Of a stretch of 64,000 nt of DNA, positions 2,747-9,402 are shown piece by piece. Under the pieces are notes generated by a model. The model was not told the DNA's origin. It saw only the letters and a program-made list of their open reading frames with translations, and did not search any database. Within the stretch, counting starts at the first letter, position 1; every line of letters begins with the position of its first letter. Position numbers and translations under genes: made by a program. The DNA is from Nitrospirota bacterium (GTDB lineage Bacteria; Nitrospirota; Thermodesulfovibrionia; Thermodesulfovibrionales; UBA6898). The DNA is taken from NCBI GenBank assembly GCA_024275975.1, contig JAJRYC010000013.1, positions 1-64,000 on the forward strand. Reading direction: 5' to 3'.

Positions 2747-4320
2747 AAGATCACGTCCGGGTTCAGGATCATTGCCGGATCTGCTTTCTGTTTCATGGCC
2801 AGGTGTTTGTCCACGAGTTCGTCACCAAAAGCGCGCCTTATGTAACCCTTCATCATTCCTCCGAAGCGGTAGTAGCTTGTGCCCATGTCAACGCCGATGT
2901 CGTATATCTCGTTCTTAAAGGACTGAAAGTGATCACGGCTGTAATTATGGTTTCCGAGCATTGGCTCGAATTCGCAGCCGTAGCCGAAGTTTTGAGCATC
3001 AGGGGGGATGCAGGAAAGTTCATAACGCGGTCTGTTCTCGAAAGATCCGAAAAGCTTAATGCCCACGCAGTAAAGAGTGTAGTGCGGGAAGTATCGCCTG
3101 CAGACCTCGTTTCCTCTTTCTACAGCTTCTGCGAACTTTTCCGAACTGGTCGCCAGGTCTGGAATTACCATCTCCCTGTCTCCCCAGAATTTCCAGACAG
3201 CGCGTGAGAAGACTACTGTTCTATCAATTATCTTATTGCCATGCATGTGAGCGGCCGGGCTTAATTCCGGCAGCAGGCTTCTCTTTCGTTCAAGAAGATA
3301 AAGCGCTTCCTTGGCTTTCCAGGGGTGAAGTGCATAGTGCGCGGCCATGTGAATAGCAAAGCCGATCTCGCCGAGTCCACTGATGCGCTTTTTGTATCTG
3401 CTGAAGAACTCCCGCTCTTTCTCGTCCGAGTCAAATGCAACCAGCAGATTGATAGCACGGTCAAGCATGGTCAGAATGCCCAGGTAATCGGCTGCTTCCT
3501 CCTCCACCAGAAAACGGAGGTCATCGATAGCCGTTCTCAGGGAGCTGTAGTAAAAGTAATGCATGGTAATTGGAGTGAAAGGCCGGATTTTAAGAGTCGC
3601 TTCAGTGATGACGCCAAACTGCCCATATCCAAGCAGCACGCGCTCAAATAGTTCCGTATTTTCTCGCTCGCTGCACTCAACAATCTCGCCTGTAGGGGTT
3701 ACGACCTTTAGAGCTATGGCCTGGTCCGCGCTGCAACCGAACTTTGGAGAGTTGATATCTATACCACCCACTCCCAGTGTGCCACCTACAGAGGAAGTCA
3801 TATTAAGTGGTGCGGAGATGTAATCGAGCCCACGGCGTCTCAGGGCTTCGGCCAGCGAGTGCCAGTATATTCCGGCCTCGGTGCGAACCGTTAAATTGGC
3901 TTCGTCGATATGAAGGACGTTGCTCATGCCTCGCGTATCGAGCTGCAGTCCCCCGAAGGAGATGCATTCGCCTTCAGTGGTAAGCCCGCCGCCGCGCACA
4001 GAGACAGGGACTGTGTATTTCTGGGCAGCCTTGAGGATTGTTGCTACGTCCTCGGACGATCTGGCTACGAGCACACCTCGTGGCAGGCCCATGGCCACGC
4101 CGCCTCCGTCAGTAATGTATACCGAGCGGCCGGCCAGGCTCTGATTGATCATTATGTCCCTGGATGTGAGTTCTGCAACAAAGGCATTCCACCCGGTACC
4201 ATCCCAGCGAGATGGATTGGTCTGCTGCCGGGGGACGCCCTTTAGAGAGTCAGGCCCAACAGGGTCAGGAGGGATTATGCCTCGCGGTAATTTGGTTGTA
4301 TTGAACTCATCCTGTTTCAT
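2743..4320 (-). CDS. FAD-binding oxidase / dehydrogenase (GlcD-like, FAD_binding_4)
   Basis: A 525-residue member of the PCMH-type FAD-linked oxidases. The conserved RGGG lies at 109-112 and GGTLGVGGID around 165-175, where the FAD pyrophosphate binds; the second half is the substrate-cap domain. Lactate, glycolate, alditol and cytokinin oxidases belong to this superfamily, and the substrate here is not evident. It is the first gene of a compact three-gene minus-strand unit with an Fe-S protein and a geranylgeranyl-reductase-like flavoprotein, all overlapping by 4 bp. The ATG at 4318-4320 is used; the sequence immediately upstream is a decayed toxin-antitoxin remnant rather than a clean promoter. 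Confidence 0.75.
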   Translation of the reverse strand: MKQDEFNTTKLPRGIIPPDPVGPDSLKGVPRQQTNPSRWDGTGWNAFVAELTSRDIMINQSLAGRSVYITDGGGVAMGLPRGVLVARSSEDVATILKAAQKYTVPVSVRGGGLTTEGECISFGGLQLDTRGMSNVLHIDEANLTVRTEAGIYWHSLAEALRRRGLDYISAPLNMTSSVGGTLGVGGIDINSPKFGCSADQAIALKVVTPTGEIVECSERENTELFERVLLGYGQFGVITEATLKIRPFTPITMHYFYYSSLRTAIDDLRFLVEEEAADYLGILTMLDRAINLLVAFDSDEKEREFFSRYKKRISGLGEIGFAIHMAAHYALHPWKAKEALYLLERKRSLLPELSPAAHMHGNKIIDRTVVFSRAVWKFWGDREMVIPDLATSSEKFAEAVERGNEVCRRYFPHYTLYCVGIKLFGSFENRPRYELSCIPPDAQNFGYGCEFEPMLGNHNYSRDHFQSFKNEIYDIGVDMGTSYYRFGGMMKGYIRRAFGDELVDKHLAMKQKADPAMILNPDVIF

Positions 4321-4479
4321 AAATAAATATACGGCAGGGACGGTATAATTTCATCTAATACCTTAATCATCCTGGATTAGCATGGAGAACAGAACCGAAA
4401 GAGATAAATTGCGGATATGATTTCTTTTGCGGAACCCGGTTGTTCGGTCTTCTTGTATTTCAATATGCGCCGTAGACAT
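4321..4479 (-). pseudogene. Fused remnant of a HepT/MNT toxin-antitoxin pair
   Basis: On the minus strand, 4381-4479 resembles the 5' part of the nucleotidyltransferase gene at the right end of the window (63712-64000). The peptide RKRNHIRNLSL corresponds to [11 protein letters not shown] there, and the DNA match is long with roughly ten differences and one lost base. At 4338-4370 the same strand encodes MIKVLDEIIPSL, matching the HepT C-terminus [12 protein letters not shown]. The middle of both genes is missing, so a deletion joined the MNT start to the HepT end. The lost base also puts the MNT part out of frame. Not functional. Confidence 0.75.
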
Positions 4480-4658
4480 CCAACCCTCCAATCTGTAAGT
4501 ATTATACATTATAAAAGCTCTCGGGATTAAATCCTGTTTATCAACTTTTAAATATGTGTGTATGGTTTTATGCCGGGATTTTCCGGAAAAGAGATCAGCA
4601 GAAGTGTAAAAGGAGAAGGATATAATTAAAAGACAGCCCTGAACGCCAACCGTTTATT

Positions 4659-4712
4659 TGACCTCAGGCTTAACCTCTCCTTAACATTCCTGTAACATTA
4701 TGCTGCTATGAT
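4659..4712 (+). promoter_or_regulatory. Pho-box-like promoter (first)
   Basis: Hexamers at exact 11-bp spacing: tgacct (4659), TTAACC (4670), TTAACA (4681) and GTAACA (4692). Nine bases after the last repeat is a -10-like TATGAT (4707-4712), and no -35 is needed. This is the layout of PhoB/PhoP-activated promoters. It would transcribe the small protein at 4838 and the glycoside hydrolase at 5056. The same geometry recurs at 6312-6365. The identity of the regulator is inferred. Confidence 0.5.
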
Positions 4713-4837
4713 ACTTAATATTACATGGAATTTCGAAGATGCGCCTTCCATAAAGACAGACAGGAACGCGGAAACGATGCTATAAGAATTTGCACCATTA
4801 AACAGGATCCTGTTCCATACGGGAAAAGGAGGAGAGC

Positions 4838-5008
4838 ATGTGTCAATATCTGGAAATGAAGGACAGGACGTGTAGAGTGGGAGGCATAGAGGTGGCATCC
4901 ATTGATTGCGCTAGCATGAAGTTATGTACAGGCAGAAGATACGAGGCATGTACAATCTACTTTGTGAGTTTTTTCCTTCAGGACTGGTCAGCCCTCTGGA
5001 CATCATAG
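4838..5008 (+). CDS. Small cysteine-rich protein of unknown function
   Basis: A 56-codon frame starting at ATG 4838, preceded by a strong ribosome-binding site (AAAAGGAGGAG, 3-4 bp away). The product has five cysteines (C2, C12, C24, C30, C38) and begins MCQYLEMKDRTC. It has no signal peptide and no membrane segment that I recognise. It is the first frame after the Pho-box-like promoter and lies 47 bp upstream of the glycoside hydrolase gene. The Cys spacing suggests metal or Fe-S binding or disulfides, but no family was recognised. It may be a real small gene that annotation length cut-offs would miss. Confidence 0.55.
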   Translation: MCQYLEMKDRTCRVGGIEVASIDCASMKLCTGRRYEACTIYFVSFFLQDWSALWTS

Positions 5009-5055
5009 CGCATTCCGACAGCAGCAGCCAAAAACCGTTGAGGAGACTTGCCTGA

Positions 5056-6315
5056 ATGGTCTCACGGCATTGGAACAAGGGCTTTCCTCCCGGTTTCTTC
5101 TGGGGTATTGCAACATCGGCCTTTCAACTCGAAGGTTCCGCTAATGCCGACTGGGCTTCATGGGACCAGACTTTAGCCGAAACACCGGATATAACACAAC
5201 ACTATGACCTCTATAAAGAAGATTTAGGATTACTTAAGGAACTGGGTGTAAATTCCTACCGTTTCTCCCTGGAGTGGAGCAGGATACAGCCCGAAGAGAA
5301 CGTATGGGACTATGAGGCGATAGCACATTATCAGGAGATAATCAATATACTGCTGGAAAATAATATTACGCCTATGGTCACAATCCACCACTTCACTCAT
5401 CCCCTGTGGTTTATCAAAAAGGCATGGCATGACGATGCATCTATTGAAAAGTTTCTCTGTTATACAGAGAAGGTCGTCTCAATATTGAAAAATGTAAAAT
5501 ACTGGATAACATTCAATGAACCATATGTGCTTATCCTTGGCGGGTATCTTGAGGGGTGCATGCCCCCCGGCATCAAGGATGTCTCGCCGGCGCTGAAAGC
5601 ACTACGGAACATCCTTATATGCCATGGGAAGGCATACGATATTATCCATTAGCATGTCCCTGACGCGATGGTGAGTGTCGCCCATAATATGGCGGCCTTT
5701 GCCCCATGGAACAGATGGAATCCGGCGGACAGGTTCCTGTCCAAAATCGCCAAATACTTTTATAATCATTCCCTTCTGGATGCCTTCAGCACCGGCAGAT
5801 TGAGGATACAATTTCCGTTCAGAAGGGCGATAGAGACATCCGTCCCGATAAAAGGCAAGCTCGATTTTTTAGGTGTGAATTATTATACACGGATGCACCT
5901 GAGATTCAATCCTTTTAGAAGAATGGGGATTGAGCTGAGACACAGGGACATCGAGGGTTATGGTCTTACTGATATGGGATGGGAGATTCACCCCCAGGGC
6001 CTTAAAAGAGTACTGATCCAGGCGTCAGGACATGGGGTTCCATTAATAATAACGGAGAATGGCATAGCGACCAGAAATGACAGGAAAAAGATAAAATTCA
6101 TGAAAAGACATGTGGATGTCCTGGAAAAATGTCTGAAACGGGGTATTGATATCCGGGGTTATTTCTACTGGTCCCTGATCGACAACTACGAATGGCTCAG
6201 GGGGCTTGATGCGGGTTTCGGCCTTTACAGTGTCAATTTTGAAACCCTCGAGCGCAAGCCTACCGCTGCCGCGGCGTATTATGCGGATCTCATCAGACGC
6301 AGATCTTCGGTTTAA
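5056..6315 (+). pseudogene. Glycoside hydrolase family 1 (beta-glycosidase), interrupted by in-frame TAG
   Basis: Residues 1-198 and the continuation from 5653 are in the same frame, separated only by TAG at 5650-5652 (codon 199); the total is 419 codons, the usual GH1 length. The N-terminus (GFFWGIATSAFQLEG) and the acid/base motif T-F-NEP (E155) are in the first part. The nucleophile motif IITENG (E334 in read-through numbering) is in the second, and the aglycone-site region (YWSLIDNYEWLRG) is intact. Apart from one codon nothing is decayed, so this is either a very recent nonsense mutation, a sequencing error, or suppression of the stop. If translated it would hydrolyse beta-glucosides or related glycosides. 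A downstream ATG at 5668 could only make a fragment lacking the acid/base. Confidence 0.8.
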
Positions 6316-6365
6316 CTGAAAGTTAACCATTCTTTCATCTTCCTGTAATAAGAAAGACCTACAAT
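6312..6365 (+). promoter_or_regulatory. Pho-box-like promoter (second)
   Basis: Four hexamers spaced by 11 bp: TTAACT (6312), TTAACC (6323), ttcatc (6334) and GTAATA (6345). Nine bases after the last is a -10-like TACAAT (6360-6365). The repeat-to-minus-10 distance equals that of the promoter at 4659-4712. The predicted start of transcription falls at about 6372-6374, at or next to the ATG of the PHP gene. Confidence 0.45.
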
Positions 6366-6373
6366 TAATTACA

Positions 6374-7063
6374 ATGTTACTGTGTGATTTTCATATTCAC
6401 ACAAGGTACTCCGATGGTTCCGTAGACCTTGAAAGAACAGTTGACCTTTTTGGTCAGGCCGGTTTTGATGTGATAGCCATAACCGACCATGTGGTCAACG
6501 GGGACACGACAATTGGAAGGCTTACACACAAACTGAAATTCTCGGTCAGAGAAGATAATTTTGATACGTATATGACTAATATCCGGAAGGAGGCGGGAAG
6601 GGCATGGAACAAGTATGGATTGCTTGTGATCCCAGGTGTTGAGATAAGCAAGAATTACCTCTCCGCCGATAAATCCGCCCATTTCCTTCTTCTTGATATA
6701 AAGGAATTTGTTCCTGCCTGCTGGAGCTACGAAAAGATATTTCTCGAGGCAAAGAAACAGAATGCCCTGGTGATAGCATGTCATCCGCACTACATGTCCG
6801 ACCTGTCAAGGAATGCCCTGTTCCTCTGGAACAACAGGGAGAGATACGCCAAGTACATAGATGCATGGGAAATAGCCAACAGGGACGATGTCTTTAATGT
6901 AATCAGCCTGAAAAAGTATCCCTATATTGCAAATAGCGATTTCCATAAAGTCCGTCACATATATTCGTGGAAGACACTGTTGAACTGCGAAAAAGATGTT
7001 GATTCGGTCAAACAATGTATACGGCACAACAAGGGTGTTGCTATAACTCTATTCAGGAGTTAG
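6374..7063 (+). CDS. PHP-domain metal-dependent phosphoesterase
   Basis: 229 residues beginning MLLCDFHIHTRYSDG, the diagnostic first motif of the PHP family (H7 and H9), followed by ITDH at 36-39. Later metal ligands are plausible in IACHPHY and ANSDFHK. PHP proteins hydrolyse phosphoesters with two or three bound metal ions; the substrate is not evident. The start cannot be moved inward without losing HIHT, and no Shine-Dalgarno sequence precedes it. It lies directly after a Pho-box-like promoter and 63 bp before a lipid-type glycosyltransferase, suggesting phosphate-starvation lipid or polyol-phosphate metabolism (inference). Confidence 0.8.
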   Translation: MLLCDFHIHTRYSDGSVDLERTVDLFGQAGFDVIAITDHVVNGDTTIGRLTHKLKFSVREDNFDTYMTNIRKEAGRAWNKYGLLVIPGVEISKNYLSADKSAHFLLLDIKEFVPACWSYEKIFLEAKKQNALVIACHPHYMSDLSRNALFLWNNRERYAKYIDAWEIANRDDVFNVISLKKYPYIANSDFHKVRHIYSWKTLLNCEKDVDSVKQCIRHNKGVAITLFRS

Positions 7064-7126
7064 AGGCAACAGGAAGAGAGATTTTATTGCTATATAATCG
7101 CCGGGCATAGTAAAAGGAGGAGAGAG

Positions 7127-8335
7127 GTGGAAATGTTCTGGATTTTTGCGGGTATTACTATTATTGGACTTACAGGCTATGTGTTTCAAATAGTAGCGGT
7201 GCATTCGCATACTTCTTCCAAAAGTTCCAGGGAGGGGCCAACCTTTACCGGCCCTTTTCCCCATGTTTCAATCCTTAAACCCCTGAAGGGGATAGACGAC
7301 AATTTATTTGATAATCTCGAAAGCTTCTGTATGCAGGACTATCCCGAGTTTGAAATTATATTCTCACTCCGGGACCGCAACGACCCTGCATACAAAGTAG
7401 CCCGAAAGATAAAAGATAAACATACTGACAGGAATATCACTATTATAATTGAAAGATGTAATGACGGGCTGAATCCAAAGGTCAACAACCTTATTCCAGC
7501 CTATAAAGCATCAAAATATGAGTATATCCTTATTAGTGACAGCAATGTGTCGGTTGGTAAGGACTACTTAAAGGAGATAGTAAAACATATGGACGATCCT
7601 GCGGTCGGTCTCGTGAGCAGTGTGATCAGGGGTGTGGGCGGACGGACAGCCGGGGCAATATTTGAAAACCTTCACTTGAATTCCTTTGTTATTGGGAGCG
7701 TTTGTTTTCTCGATAAATTCCTGAAGATGCCATGTGTCGTTGGAAAGTCCATGCTGATGCGCAAGAGCGACCTTGAGGCCATAGGCGGGTTTAAAGCAGT
7801 AAAGGACCTTCTCGCCGAGGATTATATCATCGGTAAAAGGATGAAAGATATGGGCCGAAGGGTGGTGCTCTCGGACTACACGATAAATACGGTGAACAAG
7901 TATTGGGGAATGAAAAATTTTCTTAACAGGCACATAAGGTGGGGCAAGCTCAGGTGGAGAATAGGGGGTATACAATATTTATCCGAGCTGGTTACCAACA
8001 CCGTATTCATGTCTTCTGTCCCGGTATTTATATACGGGCCTTCCAGAATGACTGTATCTCTCACCCTTTTTACCAGTTCACTCAAAATCATGGGAGATCT
8101 CTACCTTGGCAGGAGGATAAAGGCGGATATAAGCCCCCTGTTTTATATGCTGTCGCCGGTAAAGGACATGGTGGTCGGATTCATGTGGTTTGTTCCGCTA
8201 CTGTCAAATACGGTTGTATGGAGAGGCAACAGATACATTATAGGCAAGGCGTCGCGGCTCTCACCATGTACCGATAACGGTCGGTGGGCGTGGAGGTACA
8301 GGATTGTAGCCGGGATAAGGGCGAGGTTTGCGTAA
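7127..8335 (+). CDS. Ceramide-glucosyltransferase-like (GT21 / HpnI-type) glycosyltransferase
   Basis: 402 residues: one N-terminal membrane segment (about 4-26), then a family-2-fold catalytic domain opening with HVSILKPLKG, as in ceramide glucosyltransferases and hopanoid HpnI proteins. Conserved acidic motifs are visible: DSN at 138-140, AEDY at 230-233, and the closing R-x-x-R-W motif RHIRW at 268-272. Hydrophobic segments follow at the C-terminus. Members transfer a sugar to a lipid acceptor at the membrane. The GTG start at 7127 follows AAAGGAGG; an ATG at 7133 is an alternative. Position after a Pho-box-controlled phosphoesterase suggests synthesis of a glycolipid replacing phospholipid (inference). 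Confidence 0.75.
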   Translation: MEMFWIFAGITIIGLTGYVFQIVAVHSHTSSKSSREGPTFTGPFPHVSILKPLKGIDDNLFDNLESFCMQDYPEFEIIFSLRDRNDPAYKVARKIKDKHTDRNITIIIERCNDGLNPKVNNLIPAYKASKYEYILISDSNVSVGKDYLKEIVKHMDDPAVGLVSSVIRGVGGRTAGAIFENLHLNSFVIGSVCFLDKFLKMPCVVGKSMLMRKSDLEAIGGFKAVKDLLAEDYIIGKRMKDMGRRVVLSDYTINTVNKYWGMKNFLNRHIRWGKLRWRIGGIQYLSELVTNTVFMSSVPVFIYGPSRMTVSLTLFTSSLKIMGDLYLGRRIKADISPLFYMLSPVKDMVVGFMWFVPLLSNTVVWRGNRYIIGKASRLSPCTDNGRWAWRYRIVAGIRARFA

Positions 8336-8407
8336 CATAATATCCGGTGTTTTTGACCGTCTCACGGAAGATGCCGGAGAAATCAGGATGAGTTAAGGAG
8401 GTTACGG

Positions 8408-8587
8408 ATGGACGTTATCGTATCAAGTGAATATTTACGGGATGGGTATAAGGGCATAAAGATACGTGCCCTTATACCCATGGAAGTATTTGTATCGCCT
8501 CTCTTCAGGTCGGCTACAGGAAGAAGATGTATTTCTGTGAGACAGAAGACTATGACCGTTGTCCCCTATTTCTTTCAAAGCTGTTGA
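8408..8587 (+). CDS. Small hypothetical protein
   Basis: A 59-codon frame preceded by AAGGAGGT five bases before the ATG at 8408. It starts MDVIVSSEYLRDGYKGIKIR and is followed at once by the convergent gene at 8629. No domain was recognised. The strong ribosome-binding site is the main support. It may be a true small protein or the 5' remnant of a longer gene whose end was lost. Confidence 0.35.
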   Translation: MDVIVSSEYLRDGYKGIKIRALIPMEVFVSPLFRSATGRRCISVRQKTMTVVPYFFQSC

Positions 8588-8628
8588 GAAGGAGCTGAAA
8601 AAAATGACCACGCAGCTTTGTGCCCCAC

Positions 8629-9402
8629 TTATGCGATGATCTCCCACCACCCTTCCAGATGATAAATGACCCCGGGATCAGCCACATAGGAAAATTCACC
8701 CGGAGCGTAATATACCAGGGGCGTGCCTTTATCTTTATCGGAAAGATCAAACCGATAACGGAGCATCCCTGCTTCTTCCAGAAGGGACAACAGGTCTCTG
8801 GATGCGGCCTTGTTGATTCTGTAATGAGCTTCGAGAAAATCCCGGAATTTTTTTCTTCCTTCACTATATGCGCTCATCAACCGCCGACCGAACTCTTCCA
8901 CTATCGCCTCACCAACGGCGGCCAGGGAGTGCCCCCCTGAAAGCTCCCGGCAGAGGTCTTCGTTCAGGTCATCTATCAGAAGACGGGTCTTGGCGATGAG
9001 CTCCTCAATCTTCCTCAGCCTCGTTTCGATAGCGTTCTTTTCAGTATTCAGCAGGGGAAGTTCTCTTGCTATATACTCGCGATCTATGTCGATATAATCC
9101 CGGGGTTTCTTTGACCAGAGTTTAACCAAACGTTTTTCCCAGTCTGCAAGTCTGCTTTCCAGTTGACTCCACATTTGCGGGCCGCCCATATCGGATTTAT
9201 CGGTAAAAGCGGATTTCGACTTCTCATCTTTTTCAATCAGGGCGTCAACGCGGTCAAGGTAACTTCGCATCCTGTTACTCTCATCTTCAAGTAAACGCAG
9301 TTCCTTCTTCAGTGTATGCTTTTCCTGTTTAAGGCGGGCCTCCATGATAAATTTATCATGTTCTATGAACCAGTCGGCAAATTTTCCCATTGTTTTTTCC
9401 AT
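8629..9402 (-). CDS. Coiled-coil protein of unknown function
   Basis: 257 residues, highly charged, with heptad-like coiled coil over roughly residues 15-60 and 115-145 and a more globular C-terminus ending in an aromatic-rich segment (EGWWEIIA). There is no signal peptide or membrane segment. The ATG at 9400-9402 follows GGGAGGAG. It is encoded just downstream of the BI-1-family gene in a minus-strand group with stress-type genes. No family was recognised. A helical scaffold or stress-associated factor is possible but not shown. Confidence 0.6.
   Translation of the reverse strand: MEKTMGKFADWFIEHDKFIMEARLKQEKHTLKKELRLLEDESNRMRSYLDRVDALIEKDEKSKSAFTDKSDMGGPQMWSQLESRLADWEKRLVKLWSKKPRDYIDIDREYIARELPLLNTEKNAIETRLRKIEELIAKTRLLIDDLNEDLCRELSGGHSLAAVGEAIVEEFGRRLMSAYSEGRKKFRDFLEAHYRINKAASRDLLSLLEEAGMLRYRFDLSDKDKGTPLVYYAPGEFSYVADPGVIYHLEGWWEIIA

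Follow-up and report, generated by a model that had tools for sequence, protein, structure and literature searches.

Two Pho-box-type promoters and a probable lipid-remodeling module in a Nitrospirota bacterium

How might a bacterium that runs short of phosphate rebuild its membrane? The question is raised by a stretch of DNA from a Nitrospirota bacterium of the Thermodesulfovibrionales (64,000 nt of contig JAJRYC010000013.1, hereafter the window; contig C77 of the genome that we call G000, which comprises 2.51 Mb in 111 contigs and is 96.9% complete). Phosphorus-poor membranes have been described from settings that are phosphate-poor, anoxic or subsurface, and in many cases their makers have not been identified. 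In the window two promoters, P1 and P2, carry repeats like those of the Pho box; the former precedes a small cysteine-containing protein and a glycosidase of family GH1, the latter a phosphoesterase of the PHP family and a membrane glycosyltransferase of family GT21. The original prediction, made from the sequence alone, took these for phosphate-responsive promoters of a possible lipid-remodeling set. Our findings point to a Pho-regulated module that exchanges phospholipid for glycolipid, with the PHP enzyme in the place that the phosphoesterase PlcP holds in known systems, a reading to which we assign a probability of about 0.6.

The promoters P1 and P2 and the phosphate genes

Both promoters lie on the forward strand. 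P1 (4659-4712) opens with the degenerate repeat TGACCT (4659-4664), followed at 11-bp steps by TTAACC (4670-4675), TTAACA (4681-4686) and GTAACA (4692-4697) and, after 9 bp, by the -10 box TATGAT (4707-4712). P2 (6312-6365) has four good repeats to the three of P1, namely TTAACT (6312-6317, overlapping the stop codon of the GH1 frame), TTAACC (6323-6328), TTCATC (6334-6339) and GTAATA (6345-6350), with the -10 box TACAAT (6360-6365) at the same 9-bp distance. The identical geometry that had been claimed for the two is thus borne out by reading the sequence, and the genes downstream are those that had been named, a small cysteine open reading frame (ORF) with GH1 (PF00232) behind P1 and PHP (PF02811) with GT21 (PF13506) behind P2. 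The Pho box bound by PhoB of Escherichia coli has the consensus CTGTCATAAATCTGTCAT; the arrays described here resemble it in that direct repeats with a period of 11 bp, situated about 10 bp ahead of the -10 box, stand where a -35 box would be, and differ from it in their TTAAC-type units, of which there are usually three or four. The -10 box of P2 ends 8 nt before the ATG of the PHP gene, with no visible ribosome-binding site, and in 35 of 64 boxes of relatives this distance is 9 nt or less; the message from P2 is therefore probably leaderless, a feature that about half of the relatives would have in common.

The original prediction staked itself on the known phosphate genes of the genome, and these do carry the pattern. 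The pst operon (locus L017, in the order pstS-pstC-pstA-pstB-phoU) has GTAACG, GTAACC, TTCATT and GTAATA on 11-bp steps before pstS, with TAAATT 9 bp later. A pattern drawn from the genome's own sites matches perfectly at two places of the whole genome, P2 and the promoter of pstS, and allowing up to 3 mismatches gives four (pstS, P2, P1 and one on contig C17) versus two in the reversed control. A looser four-repeat pattern again finds pstS and P2 as its two exact matches; with up to 2 mismatches it yields 50 matches versus 16 in the reversed control, so that these loose matches are mostly noise. Ranked with the refined matrix described below, over a part of the genome rather than the full regulon, the five best places are P2 (49.0), P1 (35.2), pstS (29.4) and two sites on contig C17 (23.9 and 23.0), and the next best score on either strand of the whole window is 5.5. 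One of the C17 sites precedes a small cysteine ORF, a gene for alkaline phosphatase (PF00245) and one for a protein of the phosphate-selective porin family (Porin_O_P, PF07396). The other (L196, genes at 7211-9014) precedes a methylglyoxal synthase, an enzyme that frees phosphate from a sugar phosphate, and a 2-hydroxyacid dehydrogenase that we take to resemble the phosphite dehydrogenase PtxD.

The element is also conserved. A search of genome contigs for relatives of the PHP gene found 106 loci, of which 80 were kept; ten of these are verrucomicrobial, and counts out of 70 refer to the remainder. At least three of four KTMAY units at step 11 stand upstream of the PHP gene in 63 of 70 loci, versus 0 of 70 at each of the steps 8, 9, 10, 12, 13 and 14 bp. 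With a first matrix, built from three sites of the own genome alone, 65 of the 80 upstream regions scored above every one of 50 dinucleotide-shuffled versions of themselves, and a score of 12 bits was reached by 63 of 80, versus 0.275% of the shuffles. Fifteen regions did not pass the comparison with shuffles: the ten verrucomicrobial loci, L116, L113, L120 (Desulfurella), L123 and L076, in the last of which the array is cut short by the 130 nt examined. L123 is a second copy: together with L069 (record series DBNT01) it represents one genome with two PHP genes, and it has neither GT21 nor box.

The final matrix was built from relatives' PHP promoters only, 64 sites that became 55 once near-identical ones were removed. 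Its consensus is TTAACAnAAATTTAAnnTTnCnTTAATAnTCCTGTAACn9TTATnAT, with an information content that shows a period of 11 bp (correlation 0.69). Over both strands of the 80 loci (1,713,220 positions) 192 sites reach a score of 16 with this matrix, versus 0 in the reversed control, and 20 sites are found before ORFs of the PstS family. Loci of PstS were also fetched separately, and 15 of 30 were scanned, chosen as the best by E-value with one exception; the others are weak matches (E 1.6e-6 or above, apart from L153, which has an E of 8.5e-6 and shows a box) that may be other binding proteins. A box stands before the PstS-like genes in 14 of these 15 loci, L141 being the miss. Since a matrix derived from PHP promoters independently finds PstS genes, the element is a Pho box by position, and it is nearly certain that P1 and P2 are PhoB-type promoters belonging to the Pho regulon, with PhoB expected to bind the 11-bp repeats and to induce transcription. 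A near-identical box of the P1 type lies upstream of GH1 in a relative (L056, position 1182). A scan of 4300-8700 against Rfam gave a single match, to a miRNA family, at 20.6 bits versus a gathering score of 74, which is chance, and a scan for sigma-70 promoters and terminators showed no clear excess over shuffles.

The phosphoesterase, the glycosyltransferase and their acceptor

The PHP-family phosphoesterase (6374-7063, forward strand, 229 aa, PF02811) has no visible signal sequence. Its residues of metal-ligand type (H7, H9, D14, D38, H39, E90, H103, H137, D189 and H191) are invariant in 33 of 33 sequences, the verrucomicrobial ones included, and the nearest structure both by sequence and by fold is TM0559 of Thermotoga maritima (2anu; TM-score 0.87-0.89), labelled a predicted phosphoesterase. 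Membership of the PlcP family was considered and rejected, as the protein matches PF02811 and has no Metallophos match; it may nevertheless work like PlcP. The ceramide-glucosyltransferase-like GT21 enzyme (7127-8335, forward strand, 402 aa, PF13506) starts with GTG, or possibly with the ATG at 7133. Among PDB sequences the closest to it is ceramide glucosyltransferase (26qs/26qf, E 1.6e-41), with SDSN, AEDY and RHIRW aligned. Residues D138, E231-D232, R268 and R271-W272, which we take to supply the motifs D2, D3 and (Q/R)xxRW, are invariant in 26 of 26 relatives.

Of 61 related genomes, 25 have a strong match (E below 1e-100) to PHP, and precisely these 25 have one to GT21; being related, the genomes do not count as independent events. 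GT21 lies downstream of PHP, no more than 300 nt away and on the same strand, at 63 of 70 loci; GH1 is present in 48 and stands directly upstream of PHP on the same strand in 28. Within about 6 kb of the module (one representative of each neighbor family being checked by Pfam) there are phosphate genes, with PstS at 20 of the 70 loci, PhoA at 14, PstC/A at 8 and PhoH at 4, and ornithine-lipid-type acyltransferases at 7 (OlsB-like at 4, OlsF-like at 3); at least one of these stands at 36 loci. A calcineurin-like phosphoesterase (PF12850) is found near the module in 16 loci.

The strongest hint that the PHP enzyme serves glycolipid synthesis comes from a second phylum. In ten verrucomicrobial loci (L125-L133 and L135) a PHP sequence of 45-47% identity forms the C-terminal part of a protein of the MGDG_synth family (PF06925), as found by Pfam in 6 of 6 ORFs tested; the part of MGDG-synthase type mostly carries a C-terminus of GT28 type. 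The frame is open across the junction in 10 of 10, of which two run to a contig edge and L132 is open for 81 codons only. By this fusion Verrucomicrobia have joined the same PHP domain to a different lipid glycosyltransferase, one of the diacylglycerol type. In L125 the next gene encodes polyphosphate kinase. Among the 61 genomes, PF06925 exceeds its cut-off in 6, our own included, on contigs other than that of the module, and in one open library we found no paper that pairs an MGDG synthase with a PHP domain.

Lipid remodeling is the probable function, and of the original prediction the half that concerned the Pho boxes stands (the pstS, alkaline phosphatase and methylglyoxal synthase operons and 14 of 15 PstS loci), whereas the lipid half is upheld in part and indirectly, by the likeness to ceramide glucosyltransferase, the co-occurrence of PHP and GT21, the OlsB- and OlsF-like neighbors and the MGDG-type fusion. 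In the sequence of events that we propose, a fall in phosphate would be relayed by a signal of PhoR/PhoB type, and a PhoB-like regulator would bind the 11-bp repeats that replace the -35 box. Transcription from P1 and P2 would start just after the -10 boxes, which for P2 means very nearly at the start codon of the PHP gene. The PHP enzyme would free phosphate, or a phosphate-bearing head group, from a phospholipid or a precursor to give diacylglycerol, to which GT21 would add a sugar, and GH1 may trim or transfer sugars on the resulting glycolipid. The substrates and the direction of this chemistry are our proposal.

Several observations weigh against this reading. The characterized structural neighbors of the PHP protein are RNase AM, an AMP-binding amidohydrolase (2yb1) and polymerases, and we know of no PHP enzyme that acts on lipids. 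The verrucomicrobial loci have no GT21, nor any GH1, nearby; the 130 nt that precede the methionine of PHP, a position inside the fused gene, contain no box, and the scan of the 80 loci gave no assignable box at the true promoters of the fusions. Foldseek placed hyaluronan synthases rather than lipid enzymes at the top for the GT21 model and also returned cellulose synthases; these top matches, processive GT2 synthases, show only the common GT-A membrane fold and carry no information on the acceptor. A hopene cyclase gene is present in 4 of the 25 genomes with GT21, and in the window the GH1 frame, described below, is broken by an in-frame TAG at 5650-5652. As for the regulator, the best PhoB candidate of the genome (contig C52, 27603-28283) reaches 269 bits, short of the 296 that TIGR02154 sets as its cut-off (its nearest solved relatives are MtrA and RegX3), and in the stretches scanned its own promoter has no box scoring 5 or more.

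Some of these points feed other explanations. Under the same Pho regulation, GT21 might glycosylate ceramide to glycosphingolipids, with the PHP enzyme dephosphorylating a sphingolipid or acting elsewhere, which we regard as unlikely, if the most serious of the alternatives. The nearest solved sequence relative of GT21 speaks for ceramide, as does a serine-palmitoyltransferase (SPT)-like gene scoring over 520 bits in 54 of the 61 genomes, among them 24 of the 25 that carry GT21; a GNAT gene that presumably encodes a protein of ceramide-synthase type adjoins it in 28 of 30 loci, that of the own genome being one of them. As a means of telling ceramide from diacylglycerol, however, SPT failed, the SPT-like genes being about equally common without GT21; none passes the NF047600 cut-off, and the copy of the own genome (L202/L204, 213-2445, contig C34) has an internal TGA, that is, it is broken in this assembly, on a contig without a box (best score 2.7). 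Because the PHP domain is fused to an enzyme of the diacylglycerol type, we place diacylglycerol ahead of ceramide as the predicted acceptor of GT21, though not by much. Two precedents, one environmental and one experimental, favor ceramide. Phosphate-poor serpentinite fluids hold glycolipids and glycosphingolipids, the latter correlated with Thermodesulfovibrionia among other taxa (PMC10667739, in the portion available), a correlation that fits the module but proves nothing on its genes. In Caulobacter, Sgt1 and Sgt2 serve glycosphingolipid synthesis by a ceramide-type glycosylation that is induced by phosphate starvation, and in this they would resemble the module; the two differ from GT21 in belonging to GT4, and the available part of that paper mentions no PHP or GH1 partner (PMC6445935).

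A Pho-regulated set that has nothing to do with lipids seems to us distinctly improbable; in such a set PHP would recover phosphate from nucleotides or from the ends of RNA, GT21 would make a polysaccharide of the envelope, and GH1 would serve in the use of sugars. It would account for the PHP folds, with RNase AM nearest and 2yb1 with its bound AMP lower among the characterized ones, and for the polysaccharide synthases matched by the GT21 model, and Pho regulons often include unrelated salvage genes. Against it, the identical distribution of PHP and GT21 in the 61 genomes, their adjacency and the PHP-MGDG_synth fusion in another phylum argue for one joint pathway of lipid glycosylation. That GT21 is the hopanoid glycosyltransferase HpnI we reject as highly implausible on cut-off and cyclase distribution: its best NCBIfam match is indeed HpnI (TIGR03472), but at 256.7 bits versus a cut-off of 310, in the own genome no hopene cyclase exceeds the cut-off, and of the 25 GT21 genomes only the 4 already mentioned have one. 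It is a second GT21-like class, at about 30% identity, that tracks hopene cyclase, occurring in five of the 61 genomes (G008, G029, G030, G042 and G052) with the cyclase in all five and on the same contig in four; this class is probably the true HpnI. The frequency of loose genome matches, finally, might suggest that the repeats arose by chance or represent an ordinary promoter motif of sigma-70 type, an explanation refuted by the specificity for step 11 and by the boxes that stand independently in front of pstS, both in the own genome and among relatives, and to which we give practically no weight.

GH1, the small cysteine protein and signaling neighbors

The GH1 glycosidase-like frame (5056-6315, forward strand) matches PF00232 on both halves, which are ORFs 5056-5652 and 5668-6315. 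At the column of the TAG, L056 has TCG, and none of 46 relatives' GH1 ORFs over 380 aa has a stop; the TAG is either a genuine nonsense mutation or a mistake of the assembly. The motifs of the catalytic glutamates, TFNEP and TENG, are kept in the frame of the window and are present in all 46 of these ORFs, with the F of TFNEP replaced by I in 2. The plant galactolipid transferase SFR2 is also a GH1-family protein, one that acts on glycolipids, and may serve as a lead for the GH1 of the module.

Behind P1, the leader contains a perfect 14-bp palindrome, AACAGGATCCTGTT, at 4801-4814, and is followed by the small 4-Cys protein (4838-5005, forward strand, 55 aa), whose ATG at 4838 is closely preceded by GGAGGAG. 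It has a 70% identical homologue in L056, and the 54 aa from residue 2 have no NCBIfam match. Small ORFs with four spaced cysteines follow 17 of 189 boxes (three of the 192 were dropped for too little sequence), compared with 34 of 3840 stretches taken at random and with 1 of 189 when the opposite strand is read. Besides the protein of the window, this loose family has members in L196 (9109-9399, with no Pfam match), L058, L059, L061, L062, L068-L070, L072, L075, L076, L078, L079, L081, L084, L088 and L090.

Histidine kinases stand beside the module in 35 of the 80 loci (neighbor family 3), with boxes before 12 of them, and GGDEF proteins in 24 (neighbor family 4), with boxes before 14. Examples from these families, which occur among L056-L124, are L062, 9059-10225, and L098, 4069-5091; the representative kinase and GGDEF protein each have a CBS-like match. 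Phosphate control of c-di-GMP and of a second signaling path is possible.

Relation to known systems

The closest parallel is the PlcP-Agt (GTcp) operon, in which a phosphoesterase gene is followed by a lipid glycosyltransferase gene, with Pho boxes upstream and a role under phosphate limitation (PMC4796936 and PMC8231724, as far as the available text of each goes). The module shares this gene order and these boxes with the PlcP-Agt systems of SAR11, roseobacters and Agrobacterium, and differs in its enzymes: those systems use a manganese-dependent metallophosphoesterase (PlcP) and a GT4 enzyme (Agt), whereas the module has PHP and GT21, often with GH1. In the anaerobic sulfate reducer Desulfovibrio alaskensis, phospholipid is replaced by glycolipid and ornithine lipid through Agt and OlsF, according to the accessible part of PMC5193443. 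OlsB- and OlsF-like genes likewise occur near the module in the 7 of 70 loci noted above, but the glycosyltransferase there is an Agt homologue and here GT21, and the term PHP occurs zero times in the text of that paper.

In one open library we recognized no paper on PHP or GT21 as lipid enzymes of phosphate limitation; PMC8231724 does list GT21 with the synthases of glycoglycerolipids. This leaves room for a further idea that we offer tentatively, rating it somewhat below an even chance: the module may represent a new class in which a cytosolic PHP enzyme makes the lipid acceptor for a glycosyltransferase, encoded in Nitrospirota and allied anaerobes as a Pho-regulated PHP-GT21 operon, often with GH1, and in Verrucomicrobia as a fused PHP-MGDG-synthase-type enzyme. 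If this equally tentative view of the enzyme holds, PHP would fill the role of PlcP without being homologous to it and would be, to our knowledge, the first PHP enzyme to act on lipids.

The module is found in Nitrospirota, Desulfurella and some Deltaproteobacteria, carriers that are mostly uncultured. Among the cultured ones are Thermodesulfovibrio sp. N1 (L083) and Desulfurella acetivorans A63 (L120), the latter with GH1, PHP, GT21 and PstS as consecutive genes. For Thermodesulfovibrionia it names candidate genes of glycolipid synthesis and provides a Pho-box matrix for the phosphate regulon, and the gene fusion in a second phylum offers a testable function for the structure-solved family of TM0559 (2anu). 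In summary, a Pho switch before a phosphoesterase and a lipid-type sugar transferase suggests a route, previously undescribed, by which these bacteria may replace phospholipids by sugar lipids.

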